Source of the DNA: an uncultured Fretibacterium sp.
GTDB taxonomy: Bacteria; Synergistota; Synergistia; Synergistales; Aminobacteriaceae
Direction of reading: 5' to 3'
Length of the DNA stretch: 64,000 bases
Assembly (NCBI GenBank): GCA_946186205.1
Contig: CAMHMH010000002.1
Span: forward strand, 124,001-188,000
Shown: positions 6,775-13,442 of the stretch, in pieces
Position numbering within the stretch: the first letter of the stretch is position 1
Layout of the letters: every line of letters begins with the position of its first letter
Notes under the pieces: model-generated
Told to the model about the DNA's origin: nothing
Database searches by the model: none
The model's input: only the letters and a program-made list of their open reading frames with translations
Translations under genes and position numbers: made by a program

Positions 6775-8487
6775 ATGGAGACGTTAGACATAAGGCTGAA
6801 ATTTTTCATGTCAGGGATATTCTTATCGGTCGCAGTATTAATCACAGGGCTTTATTTGTGCCAGATATACCAAGGCGACAAGTATATACGCCTCGCGCAC
6901 AACAACAGATTGAGAATGATACGGTTCCCCGCGCCGAGAGGAGAAATTTTTGACCGCAACGGAGTCCCCCTCGCAGTTAATGATACAACCTTCTGCATTA
7001 TGGGTTACCCTTTAGACCTCAACACGCCGGAAAAATTATCGCACCTCAGCAAAATATTAATGCGTCACGGAATCCCCTTCACAGTTTCAGACTTAGAGAA
7101 AACAATAAAGCAGCAACGTTTAGCACCTTACCGCGTAATGAAGATAGTACCCAATCTCACAATGACACAAATGGCAGAACTGATTGCTGACTATGAATTT
7201 CCGCATGAACTGTTTCCCCTCAGCGTTTGGAGAAGGACTTACCCGGCAGGAACTACAGCGGCAAACATCATCGGCTACATCGGCGAAATCTCAGAAAGCG
7301 AGCTTGAGTCACGTTCGGAGGAAGGCTACAACGGCGGCGACTTAATCGGGAAGTCAGGAATCGAACGCTCATATGAGTCTGTCTTGCGCGGTTCACCGGG
7401 TCAGGAAGCACTAGAGGTTGACGCAAGAGGACGCAAAGTCAGGACGCTCGACGCGAATCCGTCTGTGAAGGGTGAAGATTTGCATTTGACTCTTGACATG
7501 GGAGCGCAGAAATTAGCGGTTGAACTCCTCAAGAACTGGAAGGGAGCAATCGTAGCAATGAACATTGAGACGGGAGAAATTTTAGCGTTGGCATCATCAC
7601 CGGTTTACGACAACAACCCGTTATCGTGGGGAGTCTCCGCCCGCGAATGGAACGCAATAATGAATGACCCTCAAAGGCCAATGCTTAACCGCGCAATCGC
7701 CGGAGTCTATCCGCCCGCGTCAACATTCAAAGCCTTCATGTCAATCGCATCGCTTGAGGAAAATTCTATAACTCAGTCAACAATGATAGCTTGCCGGGGA
7801 GGATTGCGATTCGGCTCTCACCTCTTCAAGTGCTGGAAACATTCCGGGCATGGTTCGCTTAATGTGATTGGAGGATTGCAACATTCATGTGATGTATTCT
7901 TCTATCAGACGGGACTTAGGACGGGAATCGATGACCTCATCAAATGGGGCAGAAAGTTTCATCTCGGTGAGCCGACTGGAATTGATTTGCCCGGTGAAAG
8001 CGGCGGAAATATCGCGGGGCCTGAGTGGAAGATGAGACGATTCAAATCTCAATGGTCAGGCGGTGATACGGTGAATTACTCAATAGGACAAGGCTACATG
8101 CTAATGACCCCGGTACAAATAGCGCGGCTTTATGCAGCAATCGCTAACGGCGGGAAAATGGTTACACCTCACCTTCACGCAAAAGGCTACAAAGTCCCGG
8201 AGAATATCGGACTCAATCCCGCAAAGCTCGACATTGTACGCAGAGGACTCGAAGCAGTTGTGAGCCGGGGAACAGGATCAAGGGCCGGGCGATTCGGTGT
8301 TCACGTTGCGGGCAAAACAGGAACGGCGCAAAACTCTCACGGTGATGATCACGCGCTGTTTGCGGGGTATGCTCCTGCTGAAGCTCCGAAGTATGTAGCT
8401 GTTGCTGTCGTTGAAGGAGGCAAACACGGAAGCAGCGTTGCCGGGCCTATGGTTGGTCAGATGCTCGCACATTTGCTCTCACATTAA
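6775..8487 (+). CDS. mrdA: Penicillin-binding protein 2 (elongation transpeptidase)
   Basis: A 570-residue class B PBP: one N-terminal membrane helix (about 12-32), the dimerisation domain with RGEIFDRNG, and a C-terminal transpeptidase. The catalytic serine is S316 in the S-T-F-K motif, the second motif is SCD (near 368), and the third is K514-T-G-T. It cross-links peptidoglycan during cell elongation with RodA and MreBCD. It starts at the base after the mreD stop and is the last gene of the + operon, convergent with the 8496-8918 gene. No rodA is adjacent. Confidence 0.95.
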   Translation: METLDIRLKFFMSGIFLSVAVLITGLYLCQIYQGDKYIRLAHNNRLRMIRFPAPRGEIFDRNGVPLAVNDTTFCIMGYPLDLNTPEKLSHLSKILMRHGIPFTVSDLEKTIKQQRLAPYRVMKIVPNLTMTQMAELIADYEFPHELFPLSVWRRTYPAGTTAANIIGYIGEISESELESRSEEGYNGGDLIGKSGIERSYESVLRGSPGQEALEVDARGRKVRTLDANPSVKGEDLHLTLDMGAQKLAVELLKNWKGAIVAMNIETGEILALASSPVYDNNPLSWGVSAREWNAIMNDPQRPMLNRAIAGVYPPASTFKAFMSIASLEENSITQSTMIACRGGLRFGSHLFKCWKHSGHGSLNVIGGLQHSCDVFFYQTGLRTGIDDLIKWGRKFHLGEPTGIDLPGESGGNIAGPEWKMRRFKSQWSGGDTVNYSIGQGYMLMTPVQIARLYAAIANGGKMVTPHLHAKGYKVPENIGLNPAKLDIVRRGLEAVVSRGTGSRAGRFGVHVAGKTGTAQNSHGDDHALFAGYAPAEAPKYVAVAVVEGGKHGSSVAGPMVGQMLAHLLSH

Positions 8488-8495
8488 CATTACTT

Positions 8496-8918
8496 TCACT
8501 CTTTCTTGTGCTCGTTGCTCCATGAAGGCTGGACGCTCTCAATGATTAAATCATGGCCGGCTTTCACTGCGACTTGATACTCATCTTCATACACAATTTC
8601 ACCGGGGGTGTTAGTGTAGACGACATAGAAAGGGTGATTGTATTTCTCAAGAAGTTTCATTGCGGGAGTAATAAGCCTCATCATCTCTTCTGTGTTCTCG
8701 GTCTTGAAGAAGCACACAACATTTTCTTGTCTCTGGCACTGAGGCGGCCACGGGAGAATCTCAGAGAACCACAAATCAATCTCACGGAATAATTCTGCGT
8801 CTTCAGAGTCCATAATGTCTTTCTGAATCAATCCCCAGCACATAGAGAAGATGCCCTTTGCGTACATTGTGTTTTCTGCAAGCTCGCGGCCCTGAATGCG
8901 AACGTATTTGAATCTCAT
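8496..8918 (-). CDS. Conserved-looking hypothetical protein, 140 residues
   Basis: I do not recognise this family. The protein is soluble and acidic, with no signal peptide or membrane helix, and is rich in aromatic residues (RFKYVRIQGREL at the start, DLWFSEILPWPPQ in the middle, HPFYVVYTN near the end). I chose the ATG at 8918 because an AAGGGGG box lies about 8 bases upstream, and because a good promoter (8941-8969) covers the longer start at 8969, which would add 17 residues. It is monocistronic and convergent with mrdA. Function unknown. Confidence 0.6.
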   Translation of the reverse strand: MRFKYVRIQGRELAENTMYAKGIFSMCWGLIQKDIMDSEDAELFREIDLWFSEILPWPPQCQRQENVVCFFKTENTEEMMRLITPAMKLLEKYNHPFYVVYTNTPGEIVYEDEYQVAVKAGHDLIIESVQPSWSNEHKKE

Positions 8919-8940
8919 GGTTAATGCCCCCTTTGCGCGG

Positions 8941-8969
8941 ATTATATTATGTCCGGGGATAAGTCGCAA
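8941..8969 (-). promoter_or_regulatory. Sigma-70-type promoter for the 140-residue orphan
   Basis: On the minus strand, TTGCGA (8969-8964) and TATAAT (8946-8941) are separated by exactly 17 bases. Predicted transcription starts about 15 bases before the ATG at 8918, giving a very short leader. Confidence 0.65.
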
Positions 8970-8972
8970 AAC

Positions 8973-9003
8973 AAAAAATCCTCCCGGTGATGTCAGGAGG
9001 ATT
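8973..9003 (-). terminator. Intrinsic terminator of the HNH/coiled-coil module
   Basis: On the minus strand, AATCCTCC (9003-8996) pairs perfectly with GGAGGATT (8984-8977) around an 11-base loop and is followed by a T run. It lies 15 bases after the stop of the 9019-10008 gene and ends that transcript just before the promoter of the next minus-strand gene. Confidence 0.75.
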
Positions 9004-9018
9004 CATTGATTCTGAAAG

Positions 9019-10008
9019 TTAATACACGCTTATGAAACTGTCTTCTAACGCGGGGAAACCATTGTTTAATTTGCGTATTGTCGAGTCCGCTTCAGGATTT
9101 ACATTTGTTCCGTCCTTCGTCAAAATCGGAGTGTTAAGCACAGACATCACAGCCTTTGCAAGAGAAGCTGTAGCAAAGCACAAATTTGCTTCGCTGTCGT
9201 TGAGTTCGTAGCCTTGAATCTTTCTGCTGAAATCGTAGCCTGTCTTCCTGAAAACTAAATCCTCAAGTTTTTCAGCGCACGGAAAAAACATGCAATCGAG
9301 TCTCACAAGCAGATTCTCAAACATACGCGCCCTCTCACCGATTGCCCGGCATAAAGTCTCGTTAGTCTTCATCTTTTCGGCCTTCTCGTTTGCTTCAGCG
9401 AGCATGAGTCTTGCCTTCTCTTTGTTCTCGTCAGCCTTGAAACTTGCCGACAATGCCGTGAAGAACATCACAGGCGCAGCAACAACAGCAAGAGGACTCG
9501 CCGCCAATGACCCGATGCCAGTAAGGGCCGTGCCGATATTGCCCGCCATCAACGCGCCGCCGACAGTCGTCAATGAACCGTTAGCCGCAAGCGCCATGAG
9601 TCCCGCAGCAGCTCCCGCACCAGCACCAGCCGCCAAGCTCCCTTCATATATGCTTGACATTCTCCGAAGCTGTATCATGTCTTCCGGCGTTATCCTGAAA
9701 TTTCTCAGCTCATCCATGCCGGGAAAATTTTTGTTCGGTATGTTCTGTATTCTCTCGTAATTCCGAATGAACTTTGTCATCGATGTATCGTAGACATTTT
9801 TCTTTGAGCGTCCCAAAGATAACAGCGACTGATTCATATTTTCCATGCAAGTCTCAAGAGATTTCTTTGCTGACTCGTATGTATCTTTCGCGCGCTGTGC
9901 GATTCTCTCGGCTTCTTTCTGGTCATCCCTCGCAACTGAATGACCCACTGCACCAAGCCCGGCGGTTGCGGCAACTGCTGCCCACACTAAAAACGGTAAC
10001 GGCATCAT
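9019..10008 (-). CDS. Coiled-coil / glycine-rich membrane protein, partner of the HNH gene
   Basis: A 329-residue protein of no family I can name with certainty. It has an N-terminal hydrophobic segment (about 5-25), a charged helical stretch (about 28-85) likely to form coiled coil, and a long Ala/Gly-rich hydrophobic region (about 125-190, with small-residue GxxxG-like spacing). A second charged helix (AEANEKAEKMK) and a soluble C-terminus with two Cys (CMFFPC) follow. The start has an AAAAGGAGG box 5-6 bases upstream. It follows the HNH gene by 12 bases and is closed by its own terminator, so the two form a unit. A membrane partner, immunity or delivery role is possible but unproven. Confidence 0.6.
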   Translation of the reverse strand: MMPLPFLVWAAVAATAGLGAVGHSVARDDQKEAERIAQRAKDTYESAKKSLETCMENMNQSLLSLGRSKKNVYDTSMTKFIRNYERIQNIPNKNFPGMDELRNFRITPEDMIQLRRMSSIYEGSLAAGAGAGAAAGLMALAANGSLTTVGGALMAGNIGTALTGIGSLAASPLAVVAAPVMFFTALSASFKADENKEKARLMLAEANEKAEKMKTNETLCRAIGERARMFENLLVRLDCMFFPCAEKLEDLVFRKTGYDFSRKIQGYELNDSEANLCFATASLAKAVMSVLNTPILTKDGTNVNPEADSTIRKLNNGFPALEDSFISVY

Positions 10009-10020
10009 TATTCCTCCTTT

Positions 10021-10902
10021 TCACCATACAAACGCGGCATTACTGGCCCAAAGCTCCCTGTATTCCGCGACGGTCTCATACTGAACATTTCCGCCAAGTT
10101 TACGGGTTATAGCATTCGCCCCGGCTGCAACTCCTTCAGCATCTCCGGCCGCAAATGCTGACTCCATTCCCGAAAGTGCTTCCGTAAAATACTCGCGGTA
10201 ATCCCTGAACCATTCACGCAGATACGACTCAAGCTCCGCCCTGAATGTGCGCTCCTGCCTCGCTGCCTCTTCAAGTTCCGCCGTCAGTCTCATACGTTCG
10301 AGGTGTTCGAGCTGTTTTCGCCGTAAATTTTCCGTGATCCTCCCAATTAGCCCGCTGGTTAATGCGCTTCCTACGAGCGATCCTATAATGCCTCCGATTA
10401 TCGGGATGGGTATCAATGACTGGCCGACCGCAAAGCCGTAACTCATTGAGCCGAAATTGAGTCCCTTCTCGCCTATCTCAAGCACAAATTCACGGGTATC
10501 AATCTCGCCCGCTGCGTAACGTTTGAGCGCGCCGCCGAAAGCCATAACACTCGTAACGATTTGGCCGGGCACGTTTGATTTCATGAATGACTGAACAATT
10601 TTTGACGATGAGCCTGAAAGCGACTGTGCTAATGTCGTGAGTCCTCCGCCTACAACGTAACTTGAAGCTGCTCCCTTTACGCCGTCCCTTGTGATGTCAG
10701 AGAGTGCGTCCCCCGGTGATTTCTCGCCTTTGATCACCGCAACGATGTTTGTGATTCCTGACGCTGTGAGCGCGGCGACTCCTCCGTACTGCGCTGCCTG
10801 AATCCCGGCGTTGTGGAAGGTTTCGCCTGCACGGTATACAGTTCTCCCTAGAGCTTTTGAGTCGATCGCTGACTGTGCGCTTTGCTGGCTTCTGCGGAGA
10901 TT
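10021..10902 (-). CDS. Hydrophobic C-terminal portion of the broken HNH gene
   Basis: This open frame has no clear start of its own; the nearest start-like codon is a GTG at 10737, without a good ribosome site. It encodes a segment rich in Gly, Ala and Val (GGVAALTASGITNIVAVIKG, then VVGGGLTTLAQSL and LIPIPIIGGIIGSLVGSAL), probably membrane-inserting, followed by a charged helix (ENLRRKQLEHLERMRLTAEL) and a short tail. The stop is 12 bases before the start of the 9019-10008 gene. Reading it as the C-terminal half of the HNH protein is inference from frame continuity and the lack of a start. Confidence 0.5.
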   Translation of the reverse strand, partial: NLRRSQQSAQSAIDSKALGRTVYRAGETFHNAGIQAAQYGGVAALTASGITNIVAVIKGEKSPGDALSDITRDGVKGAASSYVVGGGLTTLAQSLSGSSSKIVQSFMKSNVPGQIVTSVMAFGGALKRYAAGEIDTREFVLEIGEKGLNFGSMSYGFAVGQSLIPIPIIGGIIGSLVGSALTSGLIGRITENLRRKQLEHLERMRLTAELEEAARQERTFRAELESYLREWFRDYREYFTEALSGMESAFAAGDAEGVAAGANAITRKLGGNVQYETVAEYRELWASNAAFVW

Positions 10903-11312
10903 TTATGCGCCCCTGCGTGGATTTTTCCTTGTGAGTTGGTATTCTGTATAAATTGCTCGTTGCTCTGGTCTCGTTTTGAAGCGTTGTCTGAGCGTCCTAA
11001 AAGCTGAAAATTTTCTTGAATGTTTGCTATTTCCCTGCGGTCTTCATTTGTGAGAAAAGGATTGTCCTTCAGTTGTTCGTGTACTTGCTTGACCGGGACA
11101 ATGTGATCGGTTTCCATTGAGTGCAAAGTCCATTCATCGCCGTATATCGCTTTTGCTTCTGCCTGAGTGCTGACGAGAGTCTGACCTGTTGCGGCACTTG
11201 TTACTGTTGCGCCCTGCTGAAACAACTGCGCTTTGTATCGCGGCATTGCTGAAGGATCATTGTAGACTGAGCGGTCATAGCTTGACGGAGCGGCGAATCT
11301 TTTTGCGGCCAT
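10848..11312 (-). CDS. HNH nuclease portion of the broken gene
   Basis: This is the middle frame of the interrupted gene (154 residues from the internal ATG at 11312; the frame is open further upstream to 11396). The HNH signature is METDHIVPVKQVHE followed by LTNEDRREIANIQENFQLL and GRSDNASKRDQSNEQF. This is the D-H-I plus N-x-x-L plus N-x-x-K arrangement of HNH nucleases that coordinate a metal with two His and an Asn. It stops at 10848 in a sequence not resembling a natural terminus. If translated alone it would be a small soluble HNH protein. Confidence 0.6.
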   Translation of the reverse strand: MAAKRFAAPSSYDRSVYNDPSAMPRYKAQLFQQGATVTSAATGQTLVSTQAEAKAIYGDEWTLHSMETDHIVPVKQVHEQLKDNPFLTNEDRREIANIQENFQLLGRSDNASKRDQSNEQFIQNTNSQGKIHAGAHKISAEASKAHSQRSTQKL

Positions 11313-11381
11313 GTCTGCGGAAATTTCTGCTGACTTTGACGCTGCGAGTCCTGCTGCGGTTAAAGGGGAATCGTCTTCATA

Positions 11382-11393
11382 CCCCCCCCCCCC
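11382..11393. repeat. Homopolymer run of 12 C (12 G on the coding strand)
   Basis: Twelve consecutive C on the plus strand, within codons 16-20 of the minus-strand GTG frame of the HNH gene. It is by far the longest homopolymer I noticed in the window. Such G tracts are classic slipped-strand sites; adding one or removing two G restores the frame into the HNH domain. Confidence 0.95.
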
Positions 11394-11477
11394 GGGCTAA
11401 GTAGTTCTGCGGGCTTGTCTTTCTTCTTTGAGTCTGACACTTTATCACCCCATTGATATATTATTTTGGATGATGAA

Positions 11478-11505
11478 ATTTTAACATAGCGCATACAAAT
11501 AACAA
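11478..11505 (-). promoter_or_regulatory. Promoter of the HNH module
   Basis: On the minus strand, TTGTTA (11505-11500), a 16-base spacer ending in TGT, and TAAAAT (11483-11478), about 37 bases before the GTG at 11440. It supports 11440 as the true 5' end of the module. Confidence 0.5.
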
Positions 11506-11532
11506 ATGCATTTGATGAAAGGGAGAATGAAA

Positions 11533-11793
11533 ATGTTCAAGTGCAACTGCTGCGGACTCTGCTGCCGTAACATCAAGGGGATAAAACTTCTTGAGCCATT
11601 CGATGACGGAAGCGGGACATGCGTTTACCTTGACCGTAAGAATAATCTCTGCACTGTTTACGGTTCGCGGCCTTTGGTCTGCAATGTTGATGAGATGTAT
11701 GAAGCTTTCTTCAGGGACAAGATGACGAAGGAAGAATTTTACGCGCTGAATTACGATGCCTGTGAAAAGCTGAAACATTGCCGGGGAAAATGA
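11533..11793 (+). CDS. YkgJ-type CxxCxxCC cysteine-cluster protein
   Basis: An 86-residue protein beginning MFKCNCCGLCC. The CxxCxxCC arrangement, plus later Cys residues (GTCVYLD, LCTVYGSRPLVC, ACEKLKHC), is typical of the YkgJ family, thought to bind zinc or an iron-sulfur cluster; its function is not established. The sequence RPLVC with upstream LCTVY is a conserved family feature. I chose the ATG at 11533 because an AAAGGGAGA box lies about 8 bases upstream; ATGs at 11506, 11515 and 11527 have no such spacing. It is divergent from the HNH gene and shares its upstream region. Confidence 0.75.
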   Translation: MFKCNCCGLCCRNIKGIKLLEPFDDGSGTCVYLDRKNNLCTVYGSRPLVCNVDEMYEAFFRDKMTKEEFYALNYDACEKLKHCRGK

Positions 11794-11873
11794 ATGTCAG
11801 CGGAGAAATCCAAAGGGAAGTAAGACGGAAGGCCGGGTGATTAGTCCGTCAGCCCTCCGCGTAATTTACGATT

Positions 11874-12077
11874 CTATTTTCCGTCGGCTAATTCCTGCAC
11901 ACGCTTGAGGGGTAATCCGCAGGCTTTAGCTATCTCATCGAGCGCGACTGTTCCCAGCCTTACGAGATTCTGCGCTATGTTTTCGCTTTGAATGGCTATT
12001 CCTATTGCTTTGCCTCTGGCTTCACCCCTGGCTTCAACTTCACGCTCCCATTCATCACGCACTCCCACTTCTTTCAC
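11874..12077 (-). pseudogene. Duplicated 3' end of an Rpn-type nuclease gene
   Basis: This 67-residue frame repeats the last third of the following Rpn gene almost exactly: VRDEWEREVEARGEARGKA, then IAQNLVRLG and DEIAKACGLPL. It differs by four substitutions (for example SEN/SES and LADGK/LAAGK) and lacks one EARG unit. It has no ribosome site and no nuclease core. The frame is open upstream (EIASFIREGVKEVGVRDE) into the end of the intact gene, so it may be a remnant of a related second copy rather than a fresh duplication. Probably not a functional gene. Confidence 0.7.
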
Positions 12078-12313
12078 CCCTTCCCGAATAAACGAGGCTA
12101 TTTCCCGGCGGCTAATTCCTGCACGCGCTGAAGAGGCAATCCGCAGGCTTTAGCTATCTCATCGAGCGCGATTGTTCCCAGCCTTACGAGATTCTGTGCT
12201 ATGCTTTCGCTTTGTATGGCTATGCCTATTGCTTTTCCTCTGGCTTCACCTCTTGCTTCACCTCTGGCTTCAACTTCACGCTCCCATTCATCACGCACTC
12301 CCACTTCTTTCAC
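11874..12313. repeat. Imperfect direct tandem repeat, period 224 bp
   Basis: Copy A is about 11874-12077 and copy B about 12098-12313. Both begin with the same stop-codon context (CTATTT...GGCTAATTCCTGCAC on the plus strand). Copy B carries an extra 12 bases encoding one more EARG unit. The similarity is high at DNA level across the whole unit. Confidence 0.8.
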
Positions 12314-12919
12314 TCCTTTCATTTCTCCGGCCTTGTCCGCAAAAACAGGGTCAAACATTTCTTCCGGGTTCACGCAGTGGAAATCATGCATGAGCCTTCC
12401 GAGTTCCGTTGAAACATCCTGACATGACGCATTAACATACACGATGTGCGAACCGTCATTGAAGGGCTTACCCGATTTCTTGATTACGCGGTCAATGATG
12501 TATATCGGCTCGCCCTCTCCTAAAACATCTTTTTCCGTGATGAATATTACTATGCTCTTGCGCTTCTTCAAGGCTGAGTAATGCTCGTTGGGCTTCAGGA
12601 TATTCACATCAAGCATCGCGCTGTTGTATCTTGCACGCTGCGGACTCGCCCCTGATGAGTCATTCTGTATTTCCGCGTCAATCTGCGTGCCGTTCTTCTC
12701 TCGCGCCCAAATATCAAGCCTCACTGAACGCGAGTCATCTCCCGCCGTCAAAACGTATTGAACCTTCACGGACTCAACAACAAGATCCGGCCTGTTCAGA
12801 ATCACACGCAGCATTCTTTCAGCGCACGGAATATTATCCCGGAAAAACACGCGCATGAAGAAATCATCCATCAGCGTTAATTCCTGGAACGCCGCAAATT
12901 TTTTCTCACTCGTAATCAT
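12098..12919 (-). CDS. Rpn family recombination-promoting nuclease / PD-(D/E)XK transposase-like protein
   Basis: A 273-residue protein of the Rpn/PD-(D/E)XK nuclease transposase family. The N-terminus has the family opening LMDDFFMRVFFRD, and the catalytic core shows VRLDIWAREKNGTQIDAEIQ, supplying the D...E-x-Q residues. The middle carries the family block IVIFITEKDVLGEGEPIY, and the C-terminus has the EARGEARGKA repeat and a helix-turn-helix-like IAKACGLPLQRVQEL. E. coli Rpn proteins are DNA endonucleases that promote RecA-independent recombination. Such genes are mobile and often multicopy, which fits the duplicated tail immediately downstream. It lies 8 bases after the previous operon, and its strand agrees. 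Confidence 0.85.
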   Translation of the reverse strand: MITSEKKFAAFQELTLMDDFFMRVFFRDNIPCAERMLRVILNRPDLVVESVKVQYVLTAGDDSRSVRLDIWAREKNGTQIDAEIQNDSSGASPQRARYNSAMLDVNILKPNEHYSALKKRKSIVIFITEKDVLGEGEPIYIIDRVIKKSGKPFNDGSHIVYVNASCQDVSTELGRLMHDFHCVNPEEMFDPVFADKAGEMKGVKEVGVRDEWEREVEARGEARGEARGKAIGIAIQSESIAQNLVRLGTIALDEIAKACGLPLQRVQELAAGK

Positions 12920-12926
12920 GGCCGCG

Positions 12927-13442
12927 TTATCTCGGTGATGGCACTATGAAATTCTCAGAACCTCCAGCCAAAACAGGAAGGCTTATCATTATGTCCTTGC
13001 TGTATCCTATAACTATCTTTCGCGTGATTGTATTCGTGATTTCGCCCTTGTCGTCAAGAATTTCTGCTTTAAGCTCAAACTCAGGCCCTACAACTTTACG
13101 CATATCACGATCCCTCGGCATAAGCTCGGCGGGTTCTCCTCCGTTAATGCTCACGTTGATTTGCTCAAGTGCTTTATAGTCATCTACTGTCTTGTTGTCG
13201 AGGAAGACTCTATGTTCCCTCCCAATGTAGAACAGCCAGAAACCAAGCGCAACGAGTCCCGCAATCACAATCAGCCTTTGATACCATCTCATGAGGAAAC
13301 GGAAGAACGATAACCCTTTGCCGATGTACAGAATCAGCCACACAATAACAAGCGCAATCACAAACGCAAGCTCGCAGCTTATCCCGTAAGAGTCAAGAAA
13401 TGTTTTCACGACATCAAGATATTCATTGAACATCTCCATCAT
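12927..13442 (-). CDS. Small membrane protein of the sugar/nucleoside-type ABC operon
   Basis: A 171-residue protein with two N-terminal membrane helices (about 23-42 and 57-75) followed by a roughly 95-residue domain predicted to lie outside the membrane (INVSINGGEPAELMPRDRD and VGPEFELKAEILDDKGE, beta-rich). I do not recognise a characterised function. It starts one base before the stop region of the upstream permease and is the last gene of the importer operon, so an accessory role in transport or its control is likely by position only. Confidence 0.6.
   Translation of the reverse strand: MMEMFNEYLDVVKTFLDSYGISCELAFVIALVIVWLILYIGKGLSFFRFLMRWYQRLIVIAGLVALGFWLFYIGREHRVFLDNKTVDDYKALEQINVSINGGEPAELMPRDRDMRKVVGPEFELKAEILDDKGEITNTITRKIVIGYSKDIMISLPVLAGGSENFIVPSPR

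Follow-up and report, generated by a model that had tools for sequence, protein, structure and literature searches.

The locus described here raises the question of why a gene encoding an HNH-type frame should carry a run of 12 G near its start, at a length that closes the frame opened by its start codon, and should then be broken a second time farther along. Most known cases of phase variation come from pathogens and involve surface or restriction genes. We consider that the G tract, which lies in the 5' coding region, is probably a contingency switch for the effector of a candidate anti-phage cassette of two genes, and that the copy in the window (the whole 64-kb stretch of DNA that was analyzed, from a rumen-type Synergistaceae bacterium) is both OFF and damaged.

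Tract, start codon and frames of the window gene

The features of the locus are collected in Table 1. The 12-G run reported by the initial annotation is present on the minus strand, and no other G/C run in the 64 kb exceeds a length of 7. The proposed GTG start at 11440, with a frame ending at 11360, is also borne out, as in relatives without a coding tract a single unbroken frame starts from this same GGTGATAAAGTG. The HNH-type frame stays open through the tract as far as its TAG stop, and the hydrophobic C-terminal frame was likewise recovered as a separate frame in the window. The -10 region of the probable promoter is kept in the alignment with G028 and G037, and an Rfam search over 8000-13000 gave no match.

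Table 1. Coordinates of the window gene, its lesions and its neighbors, with example tracts that carry the GTAAWWNTAC motif
Feature	Position	Strand	Remarks
Partner gene, intact, 329 aa, MPLP... family, PDC-M09A-like	9019..10008	-	Downstream of window gene
Hydrophobic, glycine-rich C-terminal domain, PDC-M09B-like	10024..10902	-	Stop TGA 10023-10021
Nonsense TAA in C-terminal frame	10903..10905	-	GAA in G028 (alignment)
HNH-type nuclease frame, 3' of tract	10851..11381	-	Stop TAG 10850-10848
One-base deletion relative to relatives	10919..10920	-	Divides HNH frame from C-terminal frame; G028 alignment
GTG-initiated leader frame, 26 codons	11363..11440	-	TAA 11362-11360 ends frame at tract length 12
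G12 tract within 5' coding region	11382..11393	-	OFF length relative to GTG start; same-position pure tracts in relatives
Probable promoter, -35-like TTTGTT 11506-11501, -10 TAAAAT 11483-11478	11478..11506	-	By eye and alignment
Small CxxCxxCC (PF03692) gene, divergent here	11506..11793	+	Homologue beside cassette in most relatives
Example motif tracts	L010:4072-4086; L012:4087-4098; L017:4063-4074

The second break was placed by alignment with G028, the closest relative (88% identical), which carries the HNH-type and C-terminal domains in one 450-codon frame. Because G028 reads both as a single frame, the two domains are parts of one protein rather than separate genes. The break had initially been described as a single one-base shift near 10855-10858, or elsewhere up to 10903, but the alignment moves it and resolves it into two lesions, a deletion at 10919/10920 (AATC-CACG in the window and AATCACACG in G028) and the nonsense substitution at 10905-10903. 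The idea that both breaks lie at runs of one base stands for the first, at the G12 tract, and falls for the second, where there is no homopolymer. Local indel errors are also an unlikely source of the second break, since they would not account for the substitution among its lesions. Between the window and G028, dN/dS is ~0.3 in both parts of the gene. The second break is decay, with the C-terminal half lost recently, and it is for this break only that a reading as plain decay is right. Two of the three explanations originally offered as alternatives thus hold simultaneously, phase variation for the tract and decay for the second break.

That the tract itself is a sequencing or assembly error is highly unlikely. 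Long G runs are error-prone, and G/C runs mark the ends of two contigs of the assembly (the end of C5 and the start of C13). Against this, there is no homopolymer at the second break, where one lesion is a substitution; the same tract, at other lengths, appears in independently assembled genomes of other species; the adjoining genes are frame-clean; and a tract misread by one would remain an unstable coding homopolymer. The initial annotation had described every other gene in the 64 kb as intact, which applies to the adjoining genes but is not strictly correct, as 11874-12077 is a truncated copy. We note that this segment duplicates the C-terminal end of an Rpn/PDDEXK gene (12098-12919) and lies in tandem with that gene.

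Tract alleles among relatives

The C-terminal domain is present in 17 of the 43 genomes of the genus. Where relatives have named records, these are Synergistaceae MAGs from rumen or gut, one of them labelled Fretibacterium. When only loci with readable upstream DNA are counted, a pure G run of at least 8 lies near the start at 10 of 15 loci, an interrupted run at 1 and none at 4. Coding-class runs sit 47-59 nt after the start codon. Their OFF alleles are those of the window and G037 (both G12), G063 (G11), and G065 and G074 (both G8), and the ON allele is that of G082, in which a G9 run gives one 489-codon frame from GTG. Promoter-class runs, found in G053, G071, G076 and a paralogue on contig C7 of the window's own genome, lie upstream of a single uninterrupted frame and, in G053 and G071, come straight after a TTGACA box.

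The tracts of the sister species G065 and G082 are one G apart, with G8 breaking the frame and G9 joining it. On the 3' side of the tract their alleles show a dS of 0.289 and a dN of 0.022 (ratio of 0.076), a value that places the OFF frame of G065 under strong purifying selection, and thus still in use over evolutionary time. The G8/G9 difference together with this selection on an OFF frame fits reversible slippage at the tract rather than error or decay.

Plain decay would make the G tract a relic in a dying gene and its change in length one of several frameshifts, and we regard this as unlikely for the tract. It would fit the deletion and nonsense codon of the window copy, the A that interrupts the tract of G028, and the predominance of OFF alleles, which could mean that loss is favored (6/7 coding-tract alleles are OFF, a proportion that is not significant, at ~0.26 assuming an ON probability of 1/3). 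However, G028, G037 and G065 retain open frames of 450-476 codons while OFF, with their start codon out of frame, the low dN/dS between the G065 and G082 alleles is at odds with a dying gene, five other species have a pure tract at the corresponding position, and long G/C runs are a genome-wide class. The coding sequence is preserved in the OFF alleles of relatives; the window copy instead bears its two further lesions and is no longer a fully working switch. In G028, both the tract of the HNH gene (G5AG6) and a BnzB promoter tract are interrupted, as if switches were being locked there.

A further alternative, which we judge quite unlikely, is that RNA polymerase or the ribosome slips at the G run, such that an OFF allele yields some full frame, which would make the tract a leaky attenuator and not a heritable switch. 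Homopolymers of such length are known slippage substrates, and an intact OFF frame under selection would be equally expected. Yet the length differs between close relatives (8 versus 9), and some relatives have the run in the promoter, where slippage between frames would have no bearing. Attenuation and a contingency switch are compatible and not mutually exclusive. Phase variation at the G tract, as first suggested from the window, finds good support in these comparisons: a sixth relative has an interrupted tract in addition to the five with a same-position one, and the frame switch between sister species and the selection on the OFF frame are accompanied by tracts on contingency genes throughout the genome and genus.

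G/C tracts across the genome and genus

The 2.75-Mb genome (19 contigs) contains ~23 G/C runs of 10-19, compared with 0.6-3.5 expected for runs of at least 10 from Markov models of the window, and 14 runs of at least 12, compared with at most ~0.3 expected; no runs of 8-9 were present in 230 kb. The excess of runs of 10-19 over chance together with the lack of runs of 8-9 indicates that long G/C runs form a separate class. Genomes of this genus carry 0-42 such tracts, and those of the other genera of the family mostly 0-8 (with the exceptions of g4 and g5). Tract-bearing coding genes include capsule synthesis, glycosyltransferase 2, CotH, restriction specificity subunit, beta-helix adhesin, TPP enzyme and amino acid permease genes, of which the first five are usual kinds of contingency gene. 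The run in a restriction specificity subunit of this same genome is a C19. The long G/C runs in which C5 ends and C13 starts belong to an amino acid permease and an uncharacterised 348-aa frame; the contigs may break there because tract lengths were mixed or simply because such runs are hard to sequence.

Promoter tracts recur at operons with BnzB homologues, a sister case to the window gene. The genome encodes two such operons (E values of 5e-57 and 3e-25), both behind poly-C promoter tracts, while BnzA was not found in this genome. Across the genus, a C8-C13 run lies just upstream of the operon at 9/11 BnzB-like loci, for which the chance given background tract density is ~1e-21 with kinship ignored. 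Orthologous promoters from four species keep TTGACA and TAAAAT around 10, 11, 13 and 13 C, the run is interrupted in a fifth species (G028), and in a second BnzB-like clade the runs range from roughly 8 to 13 in five species. The poly-C promoters of these two-gene operons (L011 and L026, at G000:C1:447076 and G000:C8:77314, and L091-L101) look phase variable in several species. More generally, TTGACA followed within 0-5 nt by at least 8 C occurs at 32 places in 16/43 genomes and never in the reversed control. The spacers from TTGACA to the -10 box in poly-C promoters cluster at 19-22 bp though the run varies from 8 to 15, whereas ordinary TTGACA/TATAAT promoters of this genome have spacers mostly of 15-18 bp. 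The 19-22 bp spacers (L015, L016, L018 and L062-L089) could mean that the default state of poly-C promoters is weak, or that such spacers have an optimum of their own.

Many G runs are preceded on the G strand by the motif GTAAWW(N)TAC, mostly starting at -17 to -12. Among 81 G tracts tested from G000, G045, G047 and G060 (L009-L027 and L103-L162), 22 have the motif, compared with 1.2 (maximum of 5) in dinucleotide shuffles. The GTAAWWNTAC pattern is found in 21/43 genomes of the genus, with an almost empty reversed control; of the family's other genera, just one has it. At promoter tracts the complement of the motif is the -10 box, and the motif flanks coding tracts as well; it is absent beside the window's own G12 tract. 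We put forward only tentatively the possibility that this genus runs innate, non-restriction defense cassettes (PDC-M09-like and BnzB-like) as bet-hedged phase-variable modules, with the switch moving between coding region and promoter within one family. Many G tracts of the genus would then belong to composite elements with GTAAWWNTAC beside the run, which could mean that a dedicated factor binds, makes or mutates them.

The cassette and its relation to known systems

The C-terminal frame of the window matches PDC-M09B of PADLOC at 2.6e-13, and intact relatives do so at 5e-13 to 3e-17. The adjacent partner protein matches PDC-M09A only at 0.028 directly but is homologous (4e-49) to the partner in G076, which matches at 1.7e-22. 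The HNH part of intact relatives is matched by PDC-M40B, and an endonuclease VII PHROG matches 5/10 of the effector (B) proteins (3.8e-5) and GmrSD_C 2/10 (0.028). In a search of family alignment A3 for the catalytic D-H ... N ... N-x-K pattern, DH and NN-K proved to be conserved. No Pfam HNH model gave a match above its cutoff, Pfam and NCBIfam assigned no family to the HNH or C-terminal frame of the window, and family-alignment searches against sequences of solved structures returned coiled-coil noise only. The predicted structure of B (mean pLDDT of 45) is too poor to back the HNH assignment, and that of the partner, A (mean pLDDT of 66), had no meaningful PDB match. The C7 paralogue and a protein of G072 carry another N-terminal domain before the same C-terminal domain, which indicates that the N-terminal domain is exchangeable. 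We note that the domains ahead of the PDC-M09B-like domain comprise the HNH type and at least two others, as in modular effector families. The CxxCxxCC gene accompanies the cassette also at loci in records labelled Clostridiales and Lachnospiraceae. A gene at 8496-8969 was considered as an immunity gene and dropped, being a flanking gene also found at the syntenic G037 locus; a viral-contig scan for the cassette locus gave no match.

We infer from these sequence comparisons that the tract slips in living populations, that the effector acts as a nuclease and that the cassette works against phage. In the effector, a hydrophobic PDC-M09B-like domain would follow an HNH-type nuclease domain within one protein, with the gene for the PDC-M09A-like partner downstream. 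By slipped-strand changes in its length, the tract would bring the nuclease frame into line with the GTG start or shift it away, giving a heritable on/off state, and the partner gene would stay intact whichever way the effector is switched. Most cells would be OFF and spared the cost of the nuclease, and a minority would be ON and ready for phage. Frame repair at the tract of the window copy would now yield only the leader and HNH part, given the deletion and nonsense codon in its C-terminal half. If such switching is true of innate defense cassettes in rumen commensals, genome surveys based on presence would miscount them, with many copies off at any moment, and bet-hedging would explain the persistence of costly, possibly self-toxic defenses. 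Rumen metagenome reads that already exist allow such tract lengths to be counted directly.

The literature searched yielded no direct report on PDC-M09, nor on phase variation in Fretibacterium or Synergistaceae or on poly-G defense switches. PDC-M09 is a computational candidate, and by likeness to it the cassette is a putative anti-phage system. As in PDC-M09, B-like and A-like proteins are encoded side by side, but here many B proteins have an HNH-type N-terminal domain, a CxxCxxCC companion gene and a phase-variable tract are present, and the B gene of the window is broken. The BnzB-like operons resemble Bunzi in their BnzB homologue but differ in that a small glycine-rich hydrophobic protein takes the place of BnzA, and their identification as Bunzi was rejected because BnzA is missing. 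The poly-G/C contingency genes of Campylobacter, Neisseria and Helicobacter, which are surface and restriction genes, carry runs of ~8-19 G/C either in the promoter or in the 5' part of the coding sequence, and frame or spacer length switches their expression (PhasomeIt, PMC6321876; PMC5953494; PMC2823697). The runs described here occupy the same two positions; they differ in occurring in Synergistaceae, not on surface genes alone but also on innate-immunity-like cassettes, and in the unusually long promoter spacers for this genome. With phase-variable restriction systems, the window gene shares homopolymer switching of a putative DNA-targeting defense gene, but it has neither a methylase nor a specificity subunit.
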